From a virus: DNA of 64,000 bases. The notes under the pieces are model-generated. The model saw only the letters and a list, made by a program, of their open reading frames with translations, did not search any database and was not told the DNA's origin. The stretch is from positions 188,001-252,000 of the IMG/VR virus record IMGVR_UViG_3300048591_000147; one strand, given 5' to 3'. Position numbers and translations under genes: made by a program. Below are positions 37,763-49,999 of the stretch, piece by piece. Position 1 is the first letter of the stretch, and every line of letters starts with the position of its first letter.

Positions 37763-38143
37763 ATGGTTAAACAGGTGATCATAGTACGCAAAGATTTGAA
37801 CATGCGCAAGGGCAAGATGTGCGCGCAGGTAGCACATGCATCAATGGCGTTCATGTCTAAGATGATTGCACTTCACACTCAAACGAAGTTACCTATTATT
37901 TTATCCCAAGAAGTGGATGAGTGGATCAGCAAATCTTTTGCAAAGATCGTGGTAGGCGTAGACTCAGAACAAGAATTAAAAGAACTCATAGATATAGCTA
38001 TGAGTTCTGATGTTATGGTGTCACCAATAGTAGATAGTGGCGCTACTGAATTTCATAATGTTCCTACTTTGACGTGTGCTGCAATCGGTCCAGACCATGA
38101 TTTTATCTTGGATAAGATATCTGGACATTTAAAATTATTATGA
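37763..38143 (+). CDS. Peptidyl-tRNA hydrolase, Pth2 family
   Basis: 126 aa, full length for Pth2. It has the family pattern: VIIVRKDLNMRKGKMCAQVAHASM at the N-terminus, a central KIVVGVDSEQELKEL region, IVDSGATEF and a C-terminal LTCAAIGPDHDFILDKISGHLKLL. Pth2 enzymes, mainly archaeal and eukaryotic with some bacterial and phage members, release peptides from peptidyl-tRNA. A second Pth2-like region occurs in the gene at 48138, so this phage encodes two such modules. The gene heads an operon with its own sigma70 promoter. Confidence 0.85.
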   Translation: MVKQVIIVRKDLNMRKGKMCAQVAHASMAFMSKMIALHTQTKLPIILSQEVDEWISKSFAKIVVGVDSEQELKELIDIAMSSDVMVSPIVDSGATEFHNVPTLTCAAIGPDHDFILDKISGHLKLL

Positions 38144-42983: not shown

Positions 42984-43016
42984 TTGCACTACGGCAACAC
43001 TAAATAGATTTAATAT

Positions 43017-43108
43017 GGATAGGTGGGGGAGAGGTTTAACCCATCCTGTTGCTAACTGGGCGAGTCGCCTAAAAAACGGCTCCGTGGGTTCGAATCCCAC
43101 CCTATCCG
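43017..43108 (+). tRNA. tRNA-Ser (anticodon GCT)
   Basis: Acceptor stem GGATAGG/CCTATCC, D arm with three pairs, anticodon loop TTGCTAA (anticodon GCT, codons AGC/AGU), a long variable arm with a six-pair stem (43062-43067 with 43077-43082), and a perfect T arm GTGGG TTCGAAT CCCAC. The long variable arm is diagnostic of Ser/Leu/Tyr class tRNAs. There is one T-T mismatch in the anticodon stem. CCA is not encoded. Confidence 0.88.
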
Positions 43109-43114
43109 AAAATT

Positions 43115-43190
43115 GGTAATGTAGCTTAACTGGTAGAGCAGAAGTTTCATAAACTTTTAGATGTTGGTTCGATTCCAATCATTACCACCA
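43115..43190 (+). tRNA. tRNA with CAT anticodon (elongator Met or Ile2)
   Basis: Acceptor GGTAATG/CATTACC, four-pair D stem, anticodon loop TTCATAA, five-base variable loop, T arm GTTGG TTCGATT CCAAT, discriminator A and encoded CCA (43188-43190). The G1-C72 pair excludes an initiator tRNA. Met versus lysidine-modified Ile2 cannot be decided by eye. Confidence 0.9.
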
Positions 43191-43197
43191 AATTTTG

Positions 43198-43494
43198 ATG
43201 ATAAAAATGAACGATAATTCTTTTGCATATTTCAATTTAACACTTGAGTTGTTTCGGGCAAGACGTAATCCAAATTACACGGAAGAACGACTAGAACAAA
43301 TTGAAAATTTTTTGTGTGATGAAATGGATGTCGCATGGTATCAGACACCTGATGAAGATGATTTTAATATACGCTCATTAGTTCAATATCTGATTGCACA
43401 AGATAATCCGAATGTTTTTATAAATAAAGAAAAGCAATGGATAGTTGGCAGAGAGGACTATAGCACCAACTTGGAAAGTTGGAGATCGCCCTAA
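43198..43494 (+). CDS. Hypothetical protein overlapping a tRNA gene
   Basis: 98 aa from the ATG at 43198 (TTG at 43195 or ATG at 43207 are also possible). Acidic and soluble, with EERLEQIENFLCDEMDVAWYQ and DEDDFNIRSLVQYLIAQDNPNVFINKEKQWIVG, which reads like a genuine protein. It begins within eight bases of the tRNA-CAT 3' end and its last 18 or so codons lie inside tRNA-Ser(GGA). No ribosome site is visible. Function unknown. Confidence 0.5.
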   Translation: MIKMNDNSFAYFNLTLELFRARRNPNYTEERLEQIENFLCDEMDVAWYQTPDEDDFNIRSLVQYLIAQDNPNVFINKEKQWIVGREDYSTNLESWRSP

Positions 43495-43530
43495 ACAAGT
43501 GGTCCGTAGGTTCGAATCCTACACTATCCG
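43439..43530 (+). tRNA. tRNA-Ser (anticodon GGA)
   Basis: Acceptor GGATAGT/ACTATCC, weak D stem, anticodon arm CCAAC TTGGAAA GTTGG (anticodon GGA, codons UCC/UCU), long variable arm with a six-pair stem (43484-43489 with 43499-43504), T arm GTAGG TTCGAAT CCTAC. CCA not encoded. It resembles the other Ser tRNA at both ends and overlaps the 3' end of the ORF at 43198. Confidence 0.85.
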
Positions 43531-43537
43531 AAAATAT

Positions 43538-43609
43538 GGCGATGAAGCCCAATGGTTAGGCGTCTGACTCTGAATCAGATTTTACTGGGTTCGATTCCTA
43601 GCATCGCTG
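43538..43609 (+). tRNA. tRNA-Gln (anticodon CTG)
   Basis: Anticodon arm TCTGA CTCTGAA TCAGA (anticodon CTG, codon CAG), T arm CTGGG TTCGATT CCTAG, acceptor GGCGATG/CATCGCT with a G-U pair at 1-72, followed by encoded CCA at 43610-43612. Confidence 0.87.
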
Positions 43610-43614
43610 CCAAT

Positions 43615-43945: not shown

Positions 43946-45751
43946 ATGTCACTAAAAGTTTATACAACTGAACACAATGATCAGTTCCTTTGCACGAAGG
44001 AACAATCGGACATCCTTGATACACTACGTGAATTGAACCGTGGTGGTATTGGTGCTGTCCACGGTTATGTTCCAACATCTGGTTATGATGTTTCCCCAGA
44101 ATTGGATCTACAAATTATTACGCGCATTTCAACAAATGCGCTGTATGAGCGAAAGATTGCTGCATTGGAAAGCATCCAATTCAGTGATATCGCAAGTGAA
44201 CTCGCACAGCATCCCAAGTTGGCTGCTCTGACATTCAGAGAAGCGGAAGATTTGTTTAATCTCCGTAAGCAATCCAACATCGATTCAATGAAGAAGACCC
44301 TATCCGGTGACCGTTCTGGTGCCGCTCGTGAAGGTCATGACCGTAATAATATCTCGGTATGTCAAGGTGTTAAGGTCAATCTGGAAGGCACCAAGGTTGA
44401 TGGTGCGAAGGTTCCTACATTGTATCCCGCTCCAAATGGTAAGAAGCTTCCAAAATGCGAAAGCATTCTATTAAGCTATCTTGAAATTTCCCGCACGATT
44501 GTCAAGCCGGGTCAGTTGAAGGTCGTTAATTCTGGTGCTCCAGTTTTGATGAGCGACTTGATCGAATCCAAGTTGAACAAGAAGAGCGTTGGTCTGAAGA
44601 CTTTGTCATTGGACCCTTCCAAGTTCAAGCGTATTGTAGTAGCGAAGAAAGAAATCCTCAAGGAAGATTTGGTTAATGCTACTAAGGATCTGACTATTGC
44701 TGACATGATCATGTATCTGCTTCAGCAGTATGACAACGAGCAGAATACTACATCGAAGATTATTAATCACATTATCTATGTGCTTGACTGTTCTTCTTCC
44801 ATGCATGATCACCTGACGTCAGCCAGAAAGGTTTTGACTGCATCATTGGATGCTATCAAGAATACTTCCAAGAGTATGGGACATGAAACTTATGTGTCAC
44901 TGTATACATTCGCAGATAATGTAGTTCGCCTGTTCTTTGATCGTCCTATTGAGACTGTCAATTTGGATAATATCAATTTCCGTGCGCAGGGTATGACTGC
45001 GCTGATCGATGCTACGATGACTCCAATTCTTGATGGCTGCCAAACTCAGGTGGACCGTGTCAAGAAAGAGAATCATGCATATCTGCTGAACGTTATTACG
45101 GATGGTGAAGAAAATCGTTCACGATCAAAGGCTTACGATCTAGTTCAGGTTATTAACAAGCTGAACGACGAATGGACATTGGCCATTCAGGTGCCTAATC
45201 AGAGTGGCGTATTCCACGCAAAGAATTGTGGTTTCCCCGCTGGAAACATTCAGGTTTGGGACGCTAATTCACGTCAGGGACTAGAAGAAAGCACACGATC
45301 ATTCACCGATTCGTATGCCAGCTATGCCAATGCACGTTCAGCAGGTTTTACAAAGTCAACCAATTACTACACGGTTGATGCTGTGAATGTCGGACGTAGC
45401 GCTGTCAAGGCCGATCTATCAGAAGTGAATGGTAAGATTTACCACGCACAGTCTGGCCCACATCAGATCAGGGATTTCATCGAACAGTATGCCAAGGTTG
45501 TTTATAACAAGGGTAAGGCATATTATGAATTGGTGAAGCCTGAATTGATCCAGTCGAGTAAGGGTATTGTCATTGTAGACAAGATCAGTGGTAAGAAGTA
45601 TGGCGGTACAAATGCTCGTCAGTTGCTGGGAATTCCTGCAAACAATTGTAAGGTAACTCCGGGTGACTATGGCAACTATCGCATCTTCGTCCAGTCTACC
45701 TCGGTGAATCGAAAGGTTGCCAAGGGGACATCAGTCTTCCTCGAAGATTGA
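43946..45751 (+). CDS. von Willebrand factor A-domain protein with intact MIDAS
   Basis: 601 aa. The central domain (about 275-460) has the complete metal-ion-dependent adhesion site: LDCSSSM (DxSxS, near residues 281-285), the Thr of GMTALIDA near 350, and the Asp of ITDGEEN near 385. The first 270 residues are a helical/mixed domain I do not recognise; the C-terminal 140 are also unassigned. vWA domains mediate metal-dependent protein contacts; partners often include MoxR-type ATPases, but none is seen next to it. No signal peptide, so it is cytoplasmic. The gene uses AAG and GTC codons more than its neighbours, which may reflect high expression or a different origin. Confidence 0.78.
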   Translation: MSLKVYTTEHNDQFLCTKEQSDILDTLRELNRGGIGAVHGYVPTSGYDVSPELDLQIITRISTNALYERKIAALESIQFSDIASELAQHPKLAALTFREAEDLFNLRKQSNIDSMKKTLSGDRSGAAREGHDRNNISVCQGVKVNLEGTKVDGAKVPTLYPAPNGKKLPKCESILLSYLEISRTIVKPGQLKVVNSGAPVLMSDLIESKLNKKSVGLKTLSLDPSKFKRIVVAKKEILKEDLVNATKDLTIADMIMYLLQQYDNEQNTTSKIINHIIYVLDCSSSMHDHLTSARKVLTASLDAIKNTSKSMGHETYVSLYTFADNVVRLFFDRPIETVNLDNINFRAQGMTALIDATMTPILDGCQTQVDRVKKENHAYLLNVITDGEENRSRSKAYDLVQVINKLNDEWTLAIQVPNQSGVFHAKNCGFPAGNIQVWDANSRQGLEESTRSFTDSYASYANARSAGFTKSTNYYTVDAVNVGRSAVKADLSEVNGKIYHAQSGPHQIRDFIEQYAKVVYNKGKAYYELVKPELIQSSKGIVIVDKISGKKYGGTNARQLLGIPANNCKVTPGDYGNYRIFVQSTSVNRKVAKGTSVFLED

Positions 45752-46214: not shown

Positions 46215-46784
46215 TTGGGTCAGACACATTTTACCAGTGATTGCCACTGGTTTCACAAAAACATTATAAAATATTCTAATCGTCCGTTCGAGTCAGTTGA
46301 TGACATGACTGAGAAGATGATTAAACTTTGGAATAAACAAGTTGCCCCAGACGATACAGTTTATAGTCTTGGTGACTGGGCCTTTGGCCAAATAGAAAAA
46401 TCAGAAGAATTGATTCCAAGATTGAATGGTCGTTTGACCATGATCACTGGCAATCATGATAAAGAAATTAAGAAGAATCGAAGACGTCTATTAGACGCTG
46501 GGTTGGTAGACCATATCTATGGCGAACACGAACTTTACGTAAATAATCAATTCATCTGTTTATATCATTATGGTTGTAGAGTATGGAACAAGTCCCACCA
46601 CGGTGCATGGCAGTTGTTCGGACATTCTCACGGTTCATTACCTCCATATGGTAAGAGTGTTGATGTTGGTGTAGACGCGCCATTCATTACTGGCAAGGCA
46701 GAATATCGTCCATTTTCTTTCTATGAAATTAAACAATTCATGGACAAACAGGTTACCGAGAAAGTAGATCACCACGGAGATTAA
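46215..46784 (+). CDS. Calcineurin-like metallophosphoesterase (TTG start)
   Basis: 189 aa. The start is TTG at 46215 with AGGAG six bases upstream; no nearby ATG has an equivalent site. The motifs are TSDCHWFHKN (residues 8-17, with Cys in place of the usual Thr/Leu), SLGDWAFG, ITGNHDKE, and FGHSHG near 135: a complete two-metal active site. The family includes phosphodiesterases and protein or nucleotide phosphatases common in phages. It ends one base before the MazG-like gene. Confidence 0.85.
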   Translation: MGQTHFTSDCHWFHKNIIKYSNRPFESVDDMTEKMIKLWNKQVAPDDTVYSLGDWAFGQIEKSEELIPRLNGRLTMITGNHDKEIKKNRRRLLDAGLVDHIYGEHELYVNNQFICLYHYGCRVWNKSHHGAWQLFGHSHGSLPPYGKSVDVGVDAPFITGKAEYRPFSFYEIKQFMDKQVTEKVDHHGD

Positions 46785-46785
46785 A

Positions 46786-47469
46786 ATGGGCTATCATCTA
46801 AGAACAATAACAAAACGTCAGGTAGGCACCATCGAAAAGGTTCTTGAGGAAGTTGAAGAATATCAGGATGCCATGGAACAGGGTTGCGAAATCATGGCGC
46901 TTGTAGAACTCTCTGACATTTATGGCGCACTACAATTAGTTGTAGAAAAACACAATAAGACCATGGAAGATTTAAAAGCCATGGCAACAGTCACACGTCG
47001 TGCATTCGAAGATGGTAGTAGAAAATCATCTGAAAGCTCCCCACCCAAAACAGTAATTTATGGTGACGTGTATGAGGGAGATGTCATCTCTCAACGTCCC
47101 AAATCTGAAATCGAAGCAATAGAAACAATTGTAGCCGAATTCAACGCTTACGATAAAGACTTGCGATTTGACATGAATTCTAATACAGTAGATGTATCAG
47201 TGGTACATTTACCGACTGGACTGATCGCCAATTGCAACCAATATCCAAATCTGCTAGCCAATAAAAAACACGCTTTACTAAATTTAGCTGTATTATTGTA
47301 TGATCATAGGCAATCTGAAAAAATACAAGACATAAAGAAAAGATTTAAAGAAACACTTAAAGCTCCCGGTGTCCCTTTAATAATGCCGCACACTAGTTAT
47401 GGATGTGGCTGTGGACGTGGGAATGATTGTTGTTTGGTCAAAGAACATATCACTAACAAATTCGGATAG
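46786..47469 (+). CDS. MazG-like pyrophosphohydrolase fused to an RF-1-like segment
   Basis: 227 aa. Residues 15-78 have the MazG-type pattern: EEVEEYQDA and, after a short helix, ELSDIY, then a C-terminal helix to RRAFEDGSR. Residues about 108-185 include VSVVHLPTGLIANCNQYPNLLANKKHALLNLAVLLYD in parts, strongly reminiscent of the region after the GGQ loop of class I release factors (HLPTGIVVxCxxxRSQxxNKxxAL), but no GGQ motif precedes it. The last 25 residues have a Cys cluster (CGCG, DCC). It is in an operon with the aaRS-like gene. The fusion and its role are inference. Confidence 0.6.
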   Translation: MGYHLRTITKRQVGTIEKVLEEVEEYQDAMEQGCEIMALVELSDIYGALQLVVEKHNKTMEDLKAMATVTRRAFEDGSRKSSESSPPKTVIYGDVYEGDVISQRPKSEIEAIETIVAEFNAYDKDLRFDMNSNTVDVSVVHLPTGLIANCNQYPNLLANKKHALLNLAVLLYDHRQSEKIQDIKKRFKETLKAPGVPLIMPHTSYGCGCGRGNDCCLVKEHITNKFG

Positions 47470-47474
47470 ACCGT

Positions 47475-48071
47475 ATGAACATAAACTACGAATACATTAG
47501 CAAAGCAATAGCATTCTACACGAAAAATAGATATAAGTATGTTGATGTTCCTTGGAATGTAACCAAGGATATAATAATGATGACTAAGCCACAAATTGAC
47601 TCACCCGATTATCATTTACCCATAAATGATAAGTATTTGATTGCAAGTGGTGAGCAAGGGTTTCTATATTCTATAATGAAAGGATATCTCGCCCCCGGAA
47701 GATACGTAACATGCACGCCATGCTATAGATTCGAAACACAGGATTGGCTACATCGTAAGACTTTTATGAAAGTTGAATTAATAGAATTCTCTTTTGATGT
47801 GTCAACCGACTTCACGGCTAATGAAGTAGAAGAACATGCGTACAGATTTTTCCATACATTATTACCGTTGTCTAAAGTGTCTCCAATAGTTCCAGCGGAA
47901 TCTGATAAAGGTCCATTAGATATTGTTACTCCAATGGACTGGACGCTCAACGGCGTTGAGATAGGGAGCTACGGTGTGAGGCAATATAAGAATTTAGTGA
48001 AATGGGTGTATGGTACTGGACTAGCAGAACCAAGATTCACAACTGCAAAAAATTATGACGCACCGAGATAA
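47475..48071 (+). CDS. Minimal class II aminoacyl-tRNA synthetase-like core protein
   Basis: 198 aa. The class II catalytic-core order is visible: a motif 1-like VDVPWNVT (residues 23-30), motif 2 CYRFETQDWLHRKTFMKVE (residues 83-101; Arg85, Glu87, His93, Phe97, Glu101), GVEIGSYGVRQ (160-170), and motif 3 YGTGLAEPR ending in Arg187. There is no anticodon-binding domain. Known stand-alone relatives include AsnA, HisZ and EpmA types. The substrate is unknown. It lies between the MazG/RF-like gene and the HD/Pth2-like gene, near four tRNAs. Confidence 0.62.
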   Translation: MNINYEYISKAIAFYTKNRYKYVDVPWNVTKDIIMMTKPQIDSPDYHLPINDKYLIASGEQGFLYSIMKGYLAPGRYVTCTPCYRFETQDWLHRKTFMKVELIEFSFDVSTDFTANEVEEHAYRFFHTLLPLSKVSPIVPAESDKGPLDIVTPMDWTLNGVEIGSYGVRQYKNLVKWVYGTGLAEPRFTTAKNYDAPR

Positions 48072-48137: not shown

Positions 48138-49010
48138 ATGAATAGTAACACTGGTTGGTAGGTTGCACTTGAAAATGCAACAAATTCTTTTCAATTTAAT
48201 GACGTGTCCTTCATACGTCATGGAGAAATGGTTTGGGAAGAATACAAAAAACTGATAGACGCAAAGTTTGTCGGGACATTTCTAGAAAAATACGCAGATA
48301 AACTAATAGCACTTCAACATCCAAGCGATGTTGTCAGAGACTATGCAATTTACCACGATATTGGTAAGCCGATCGCTCTGGTTATTGATCAGGACGGTAA
48401 GAAGCATTACCCAGATCATGCGAATATTTCTGCAAATTTATACGCAGAACACAATAAAGACAATCCAAATTGTGAGCTAATTTCTAACCTGATCAGAAAT
48501 GACATGCTGTTCCATGTCAATACTGGCTATGAAATTTTGCATCAAGTTAATAATCAGAACGATTTGGCTACTCTACTGTGTGTGGCATTGGCAGAGTTGT
48601 ATGCTAATAGGCCAATGTTCGGCGAAGATTCTTTTAAGATAAAATACAAGAAACTGGCTAAGAAAGCTAAATTGATTCTTGGCTATCTTTTCGAACATCC
48701 GTATTTGTATATCTTAACAAGGAAAGATTTGCCGCTTCCGCAGATAGCGGTGCAGTCTTGTCACTCTGCTATTGAGGCTGGTAAAAAATATCCTACACAC
48801 CATCACCCGTCTGTGATTCTATGTACCGTGAAAAATGAGAATGATCTCATGAATCAGGCAAGGTATTTAGAAAACAATGGTATAGAGTTTATAGAATTTA
48901 GAGAGCCTGACAGGGATAATGAGCTAACATCAATTTGTTCCGAACCTATCTATGGTGATGATAGGAAAATATTTTCAAAATTTCAATTATTCAAAGGAGA
49001 ATTAAAATGA
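48138..49010 (+). CDS. HD-domain protein fused to Pth2-like region, with in-frame amber at codon 8
   Basis: The ATG at 48138 has AGGAG at ideal spacing, but codon 8 is TAG (48159-48161); the frame then stays open to 49010. A GTG at 48204 without a ribosome site would give 268 aa. From that GTG, residues about 25-85 form an HD phosphohydrolase core (YAIYHDIGKP, PDHANIS), and about 178-265 resemble Pth2 (ILTRKDLPLPQIAVQSCHSAIEAG, SVILCTVKNENDLMNQA). The enzyme could hydrolyse a nucleotide or peptidyl-tRNA-type substrate; this is inference. Elsewhere TAG is used as a normal stop (43917, 45991, 47469). Confidence 0.6.
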
Positions 49011-49384: not shown

Positions 49385-49999
49385 ATGCGATATATCATAT
49401 TAATACTCTGTTTATTATTGTCAACACCAGTGTTTGCTCAAGTACCGGCAAACACTGGTGTATGTTTAAATGCTCAGGAAAATGAGCTAGCTATATCGGT
49501 CAATGCATATAGAGTCCAGAACGGGCTCCAACCAGTACCAGTATCATACTGGATATCAACAGTTGGGCAGTGGCATGTATGGGATTTGATGGATAATAAT
49601 CCTGTGTCTGCTTCCTGCAACATACACAGTTGGTCAAATATAATGCCATCTTTATGGCAGCCGGTATGTTATACGCCAGATCATGCACAAGCCGCACAGA
49701 TGTGGGGCAAACCTCGTCAAATTTCTGCAAATACCTTCACAGGAAACGGTTATGAGAATGCCGCAGTATCCGGCATTGATATAGACGCGCAAACTGCATT
49801 AGCGCTATGGAAAAATAGCTCGGCGCATAATGATGTGATTTTAAATCGTGGCATCTGGGCTGGAGTGACATTTCGTGCAATGGGAGTTGGTATATATCGT
49901 AATTATGCAGTACTCTGGTTTGCTGATGGTATTACTGATCCGGCAGGCACAATGACATTGTGTCAAACCGATAATATTTTTGCAAATGGATTTGAGTAA
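49385..49999 (+). CDS. Exported CAP/SCP-domain protein
   Basis: 204 aa. Signal peptide of residues 1-18 (ILILCLLLSTPVFA|Q). The mature part has CAP-domain features: NAYRVQNGLQPVPV, a His-containing HSWSN segment, NGYENAAVS, and ALWKNSSAHNDVILNRG with the conserved Ser-x-x-His-Asn. Several Cys suggest periplasmic disulfides. It ends TDNIFANGFE, a C-terminal motif I associate with exported proteins of some gammaproteobacteria. A perfect late promoter precedes it, so it is made late, and could act in the envelope at lysis or be attached to the virion. Confidence 0.75.
   Translation: MRYIILILCLLLSTPVFAQVPANTGVCLNAQENELAISVNAYRVQNGLQPVPVSYWISTVGQWHVWDLMDNNPVSASCNIHSWSNIMPSLWQPVCYTPDHAQAAQMWGKPRQISANTFTGNGYENAAVSGIDIDAQTALALWKNSSAHNDVILNRGIWAGVTFRAMGVGIYRNYAVLWFADGITDPAGTMTLCQTDNIFANGFE

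Follow-up and report, generated by a model that had tools for sequence, protein, structure and literature searches.

The window, a 64,000-nucleotide stretch of a 314,956-base virus record, carries two adjoining genes on one strand: a gene for a 198-residue protein that resembles the catalytic core of a class II aminoacyl-tRNA synthetase and, immediately upstream, a partner gene whose product begins with a putative pyrophosphohydrolase domain (Table 1). The synthetase-like open reading frame is present exactly where an earlier, sequence-only reading of this DNA had placed it. It matches the PHROG 4806 profile over residues 1 to 191 (E = 6.1e-42), almost its entire length, and belongs to that family. 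Homologues with up to 41% identity occur in 272 of 50,697 phage records, where they are annotated as histidyl- or seryl-tRNA synthetase or as hypothetical proteins. PHROG 4806 itself is labeled "histidyl tRNA synthetase," with no mention of the partner, and some GenBank entries read "putative seryl-tRNA synthetase." The family is thus already known by annotation, its functional label is inherited annotation, and our literature search returned no experiment on it. Scanning viral contigs with a pattern taken from one sequence gave no matches; an alignment-based scan yielded 172 relatives, 80 of which were kept. PADLOC matched neither the synthetase-like protein nor its partner.

Table 1. Features of the synthetase-like gene, its partner, and their surroundings. 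Positions without a prefix are those of the window; L numbers denote other loci.
Feature	Position	Strand	Remarks
Peptidyl-tRNA hydrolase 2	37763-38143		Pfam PTH2, E = 4.2e-31; about 9 kb upstream of synthetase-like gene
Four tRNA genes	43016-43612		
601-aa protein with VWA domain	43946-45751		E = 7.5e-5; downstream of tRNA genes
Protein with calcineurin-like phosphoesterase motifs	46215-46784		GDW, GNHD, and GHSH by eye, no Pfam match; 1 nt before partner gene
Partner gene	46786-47469	+	227 aa; ends 5 nt before synthetase-like gene
Putative HisE/MazG-like all-alpha NTP pyrophosphohydrolase domain	46786-47025	+	aa 1-80 of partner; PHROG 6408
RF-1-like domain without GGQ	47176-47352	+	aa 131-189 of partner; Pfam RF-1
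Mini class II aminoacyl-tRNA synthetase core, SerRS-like	47475-48071	+	ATG start; 198 aa; PHROG 4806
Motif 1-like helix/strand	47517-47585	+	aa 15-37; Y15, P26, W27, and T37 conserved
SGEQ	47646-47657	+	aa 58-61; counterpart of SerRS TxE amino-acid loop
Motif 2	47715-47780	+	aa 81-102; P82, C83, R85, F97, K99, and E101; loop shortened
EIGSYGVR	47958-47981	+	aa 162-169; counterpart of SerRS E355-x-x-S358 ATP/metal segment
Motif 3, YGTGLAEPR	48009-48035	+	aa 179-187; T181 = SerRS serine-site Thr; R187 = motif 3 Arg
HD-domain protein	48204-49010		Pfam HD, E = 1.7e-5; 132 nt downstream of synthetase-like gene
Protein with signal-peptide-like N terminus	49385-49999		No Pfam match; directly before capsid genes
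Cellular cassette, fusion plus small radical SAM gene	L101:7466-9474; L105:7011-9475; L107:7290-8798; L126; L127		
CcrColossus gp133	L007:3746-4600		Synthetase-like core plus N-terminal domain, Pfam E = 3.1e-6
phi92 YqeY-like gene	L009:4586-5020		Pfam YqeY, E = 5e-7
BpSp pair gp012-gp011	L129:2420-3383		

Modeling with AlphaFold2 from an alignment of 75 sequences (window, viral, and genome) predicts a class II aminoacyl-tRNA synthetase fold for the 198-residue protein (mean pLDDT, 92.5; pTM, 0.90), with the long strands and helices arranged in class II order. The prediction, which had been suggested as a check, bears out the earlier proposal of a class II core without an anticodon-binding domain. 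A Foldseek search of the PDB placed E. coli SerRS at the top (E = 1.2e-9), followed by compact domains of pyrrolysyl-tRNA synthetase, the next structural neighbor among the compact cores, which differs in its amino-acid pocket and in having a dedicated tRNA-binding surface. In VIA-align the best match is human mitochondrial SerRS (Z = 21.1 over 195 residues), with model residues 1 to 198 aligned to residues 231 to 470, the catalytic domain only. Z is at least 8 for 954 of the 1,000 aligned PDB chains, and the 50 matches listed are all class II synthetases or fusions of one. Similarly, a profile search of PDB sequences returned SerRS first (E = 3e-7), and serS was the sole NCBIfam match, at 16.6 bits against an equivalog cut-off of 301.65.

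These searches point to SerRS as the nearest relative instead of AspRS, LysRS, or AsnA, which the sequence-only reading had named for comparison; AsnA is absent among the structural and sequence matches listed. HisRS structures also lie close to the model (4rdx, Z = 19.4, versus 21.1 for SerRS). The sequence searches returned SerRS and not HisRS, and the protein is too short for a HisRS-type C-terminal domain. Stand-alone class II cores that work outside tRNA charging include HisZ, AsnA, EpmA, and the aminoacyl:carrier-protein ligases. None of these was returned by sequence searches with the 198-residue protein, and we know of none that is paired with a HisE/MazG enzyme.

All of the segments named in the sequence-only reading are present, namely, CYRFE (residues 83 to 87), HRKTF (93 to 97), EIGSYGVRQ (162 to 170), and YGTGLAEPR (179 to 187), along with a VELIEF segment at residues 100 to 105. 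Motif 1, which that reading had left unnamed, is there as well, with P26 found in 73 of the 75 homologues. Residues T37, S58, E60, Q61, P82, C83, F97, K99, and E101 and, in the C-terminal part, E162, G164, S165, T181, A184, and P186 are invariant in all 75. The motif 2 and motif 3 arginines (R85 and R187), whose retention among homologues had been singled out as worth checking, are each kept in 74 of 75. The motif segments are far beyond chance because they coincide with the PHROG 4806 match (E = 6e-42), homologues in 272 records, a model with a pLDDT of 92.5, and structural matches to SerRS.

As a reference for residue equivalences, we used the genuine SerRS encoded in an archaeal locus (L103). 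Residues S58, E60, R85, F97, and E101 of the 198-residue protein align with T237, E239, R268, F287, and E291 of this SerRS, and E162, S165, T181, and R187 align with E355, S358, T389, and R395; in SerRS structures these residues include ATP contacts and those that hold the amino and hydroxyl groups of serine. The serine-site residues of SerRS (the TxE loop, E291, and the motif 3 Thr/Ser) are retained in 75 of 75 sequences, with Thr replaced by Ser at position 58. Because the adenylation residues are nearly or fully invariant among the 75 homologues, the protein is likely to be catalytic rather than an inert fold. As its substrate, our best guess is serine or some amino acid about as small.

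The likeness to the catalytic core of SerRS, a subclass IIa enzyme, thus takes in the fold, motifs 1 to 3, and the ATP- and serine-site residues, whereas sequence identity is only about 15 to 22% and the N-terminal helical arm that SerRS has for tRNA-Ser is lacking. Further, the motif 2 Arg and Phe are 12 to 14 residues apart in all 75 sequences, compared to 19 in SerRS. The motif 2 loop of synthetases touches the tRNA acceptor stem. Judging from the alignment and the predicted model, the parts that would grip tRNA are reduced, with no helical arm and a shorter motif 2 loop.

The start of the partner protein matches PHROG 6408 (E = 6.5e-32), a domain that the sequence-only reading had missed. 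Residues E21, E22, E25, E41, and D44 are invariant in 35 of 35 members and form an EExxE...ExxD pattern, which we take to be the metal-binding pattern of all-alpha NTP pyrophosphohydrolases. Searched singly, 21 of the 35 members are hit by Pfam PRA-PH (the HisE family; best E = 2.5e-5) and 5 by MazG, with no match to either model for the window's own partner by itself. When the partner was compared, profile against profile, with four canonical MazG-like proteins, no useful signal emerged, probably because the set was small and divergent. In the phi92 record, a MazG-like fold is already noted for gp197, which adjoins gp196. The motif and the weak profile matches suggest that the domain is HisE/MazG-like and a putative pyrophosphohydrolase. 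It has the EExxE...ExxD motif and the PRA-PH matches in common with HisE, MazG, phage dCTPase, and MazZ but differs from them in its length of only 80 residues and in two features of its own, a GYH at the start and a T-x(3)-F-x(4)-R at the end, which are found among its relatives.

The two genes are rarely apart. Across 101 non-redundant loci drawn from phage records, IMG/VR, and genome contigs, the partner is found in 96 (upstream in 54, downstream in 35, and fused in 7), with a median gap of 14 nt between the domains and reading frames that often overlap. When the whole records of the five loci without a neighboring partner reading frame were searched, the partner was found directly beside the gene in two (L032 and L052), and no partner was found in phage Acj61 or in the MAG loci L100 and L108. 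With a synthetase-partner fusion as the query, a single place covers at least 80% of it in 244 of 274 phage records. The partner alone as the query likewise found 244 phage records, Bacillus phage BpSp included, in which gp011, the neighbor of partner gp012, is a far more divergent member of the synthetase-like family (E = 6.5e-19). Its motif 3 reads SNTGIASPR, in the style of SerRS, and gp011 is possibly an intermediate between SerRS and the phage family. The partner domain occurs almost only beside the synthetase-like gene.

Fusions of the two domains occur in DPANN-type archaea, in WWE3, and in Microcystis phages; a fused protein was predicted domain by domain with a pLDDT of 93.9 and a pTM of 0.75. 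The two proteins co-diverge (Mantel r = 0.43, reached in 0 of 999 permutations), a pattern that shared phage descent gives as well and that we therefore do not count as evidence. Travel of the genes together in both orders, unfused and fused, is strong evidence that the synthetase-like protein and its partner share one pathway. The synthetase-like family itself is catalogued. A literature search of open-access papers, with most subscription journals outside its scope, found no account of the pair, the fusions, or a cellular association with a radical SAM gene. The genome paper on phage RXM lists both genes, separately (PMC8953757), and we otherwise found no paper linking the family to MazG/HisE.

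The sequence-only reading had looked for context in tRNA genes, a release-factor-like segment, and two Pth2-like modules. Four tRNA genes are real, although they lie 3.9 kb upstream of the synthetase-like gene and not beside it. The release-factor-like segment is also real (Pfam RF-1, E = 9e-5) but turns out to form the C-terminal portion of the partner encoded upstream; the GGQ is missing from it, the sequence reading DLRFDMNSNTVDVSVVHLPTG, and no such domain was found in the seven other long partner proteins scanned. One Pth2-like module is clear, and the second, at the C terminus of the HD-domain protein, is weak (E = 0.044). None of these features is conserved around the family, so the informative neighbor is instead the near-obligate partner. 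The HD protein is not conserved around the family either, and a search of the 101 loci for a conserved third gene around the pair found none. RlaP-type nucleotidyltransferase, Pth2-like, thymidylate synthase, and ribonucleotide reductase genes were considered as functional clues and set aside, each being present in only 4 to 6 of the 101 loci; these recurrences fit common phage neighborhoods. Other genes in this part of the window encode the VWA-domain protein, the protein with calcineurin-like phosphoesterase motifs, and the protein with a signal-peptide-like N terminus (Table 1).

In cells the pair is rare, at 5 of 279, 3 of 380, and 1 of 299 genomes in samples of three phyla, each of which includes genomes previously known as carriers. 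It takes the form of one fused protein in Woesearchaeota, Nanoarchaeota, other archaea, and WWE3 (L101, L102, L103, L105, L107, L126, and L127). Several of these fusion loci are embedded among housekeeping genes, and a divergently transcribed HTH protein is common to the archaeal loci. Five of the seven fusions abut a radical SAM protein of one kind, 221 to 228 residues long, which scores against the MoaA and viperin models far under the NCBIfam cut-offs. The adjoining radical SAM gene suggests metabolite chemistry, and the cassette has the look of a mobile unit, biosynthetic or defence-like in nature, in DPANN-type archaea and WWE3. An AAA_28 P-loop NTPase beside the archaeal L101 fusion was rejected as a linked gene; among the loci fetched, just two others have a relative of it, encoded on the opposite strand at a distance of more than 1.5 kb.

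We tentatively favor, at somewhat short of an even chance, a reading in which the synthetase-like protein is a SerRS-type catalytic adenylating core that works in one pathway with the pyrophosphohydrolase, with an acceptor that is probably not tRNA and an aminoacylated nucleotide as the most plausible product. We infer the activity of the pair, its serine specificity, its physical complex, its acceptor, and its product. On this reading, a seryl-tRNA synthetase-type core would have given rise to a minimal class II adenylating enzyme, which would most likely take up ATP together with serine, or else some other small amino acid, and convert them to an aminoacyl-adenylate. Two features make tRNA an improbable acceptor: the protein has no tRNA-binding arm, and its motif 2 loop is cut short. 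Both proteins would act in one pathway, probably in one complex: the partner would act on one specific (d)NTP, or on a derivative of an NTP, to yield the monophosphate, and the synthetase-like enzyme would join the activated amino acid to that monophosphate, giving the aminoacylated nucleotide. This hypothesis is modeled on phage base-modification pathways, in which dedicated all-alpha dNTP pyrophosphatases (dCTPase and MazZ) feed a modifying enzyme.

Points against the favored reading are the carriers in which no partner was found (L100, L108, and phage Acj61), the lack of a conserved third gene that might point to the acceptor, the weak profile matches behind the HisE/MazG-like assignment, and the two tRNA-Ser genes encoded in the window. 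Together with the SerRS structures as closest matches, the conserved serine-site residues, the tRNA-rich genomes of some carriers (CcrBL9), and the even more SerRS-like motif 3 of BpSp gp011, these tRNA-Ser genes speak for a rival in which the protein is a seryl-tRNA synthetase of minimal size, charging tRNA-Ser of the host or the phage, and the partner is an accessory. We nevertheless consider this unlikely: the tRNA-binding arm is absent, the motif 2 loop is shortened, the serS score falls below the equivalog cut-off, at least one cellular carrier (L103) also encodes a full SerRS of its own, and the partner is a nucleotide pyrophosphohydrolase, for which we know of no role in tRNA charging. 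Moreover, phage RXM has the pair with a single tRNA gene, for tRNA-Trp (PMC8953757), so that charging of phage-encoded tRNAs cannot be the general role, although host tRNA may conceivably be charged; a dedicated role in charging the phage's own tRNAs, one of the functions first suggested for the window gene, is therefore disfavored.

That the protein almost always accompanies a nucleotide hydrolase, whether fused to it or not, would also fit an amino-acid-sensing regulatory subunit that controls the pyrophosphohydrolase, the pair trimming the NTP pool or an alarmone, e.g., (p)ppGpp, during infection. The similarity of the partner to HisE points the same way, and HisZ, a synthetase paralogue that controls HisG, offers a precedent for a sensor subunit. 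However, HisZ has lost some adenylation residues, as would be expected of a pure sensor, whereas those of the 198-residue protein are almost perfectly conserved, and we regard a sensor as quite unlikely. Less probable again is the transfer of an activated amino acid to a protein, as by EpmA on EF-P, or to a carrier, as by the SerRS-type aminoacyl:carrier-protein ligases. Other stand-alone class II cores are known to act in these ways, and the tRNA-binding parts are missing here, but the 101 loci show no conserved neighbor of the pair that could serve as the acceptor protein, and the pyrophosphohydrolase would be left unexplained. Class II synthetases also make Ap4A as a side product, and a fusion would co-locate producer and cleaner if the partner removed such by-products (e.g., diadenosine polyphosphates) while the main reaction was something else. 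This house-cleaning role seems very improbable, as HisE/MazG enzymes are not, to our knowledge, Ap4A hydrolases and we know of no such companion for ordinary synthetases.

Genome annotation has treated the family as phage histidyl- or seryl-tRNA synthetase, and translation stories have been built on that label (PMC8953757, for example). The family's almost constant association with a nucleotide pyrophosphohydrolase, whichever gene comes first and also in fused form, points instead to a shared pathway, an idea that is directly testable in phages infecting E. coli K-12. Extended to all carriers, the favored reading becomes an undescribed two-enzyme pathway present in large phages and, sporadically, in DPANN-type archaea and bacteria of candidate phyla. 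A mini-ligase derived from SerRS would work with its dedicated HisE/MazG-like pyrophosphohydrolase to make an aminoacylated nucleotide (a new modified DNA or RNA precursor, or a new nucleotide signal or counter-defence molecule), with radical SAM tailoring in some cells; in this full form we hold the reading to be doubtful. Should an aminoacylated nucleotide indeed be the product, phages would be using a recycled synthetase core for nucleotide chemistry of a new type, and the protein, at 198 residues, would be very small for a natural class II adenylating core.

Two variants of the phage loci were also observed. In CcrColossus, gp133 joins the synthetase-like core to an N-terminal domain resembling the C-terminal domain of RNA polymerase alpha, and in phi92 a YqeY-like gene lies directly downstream of the synthetase-like gene (Table 1).
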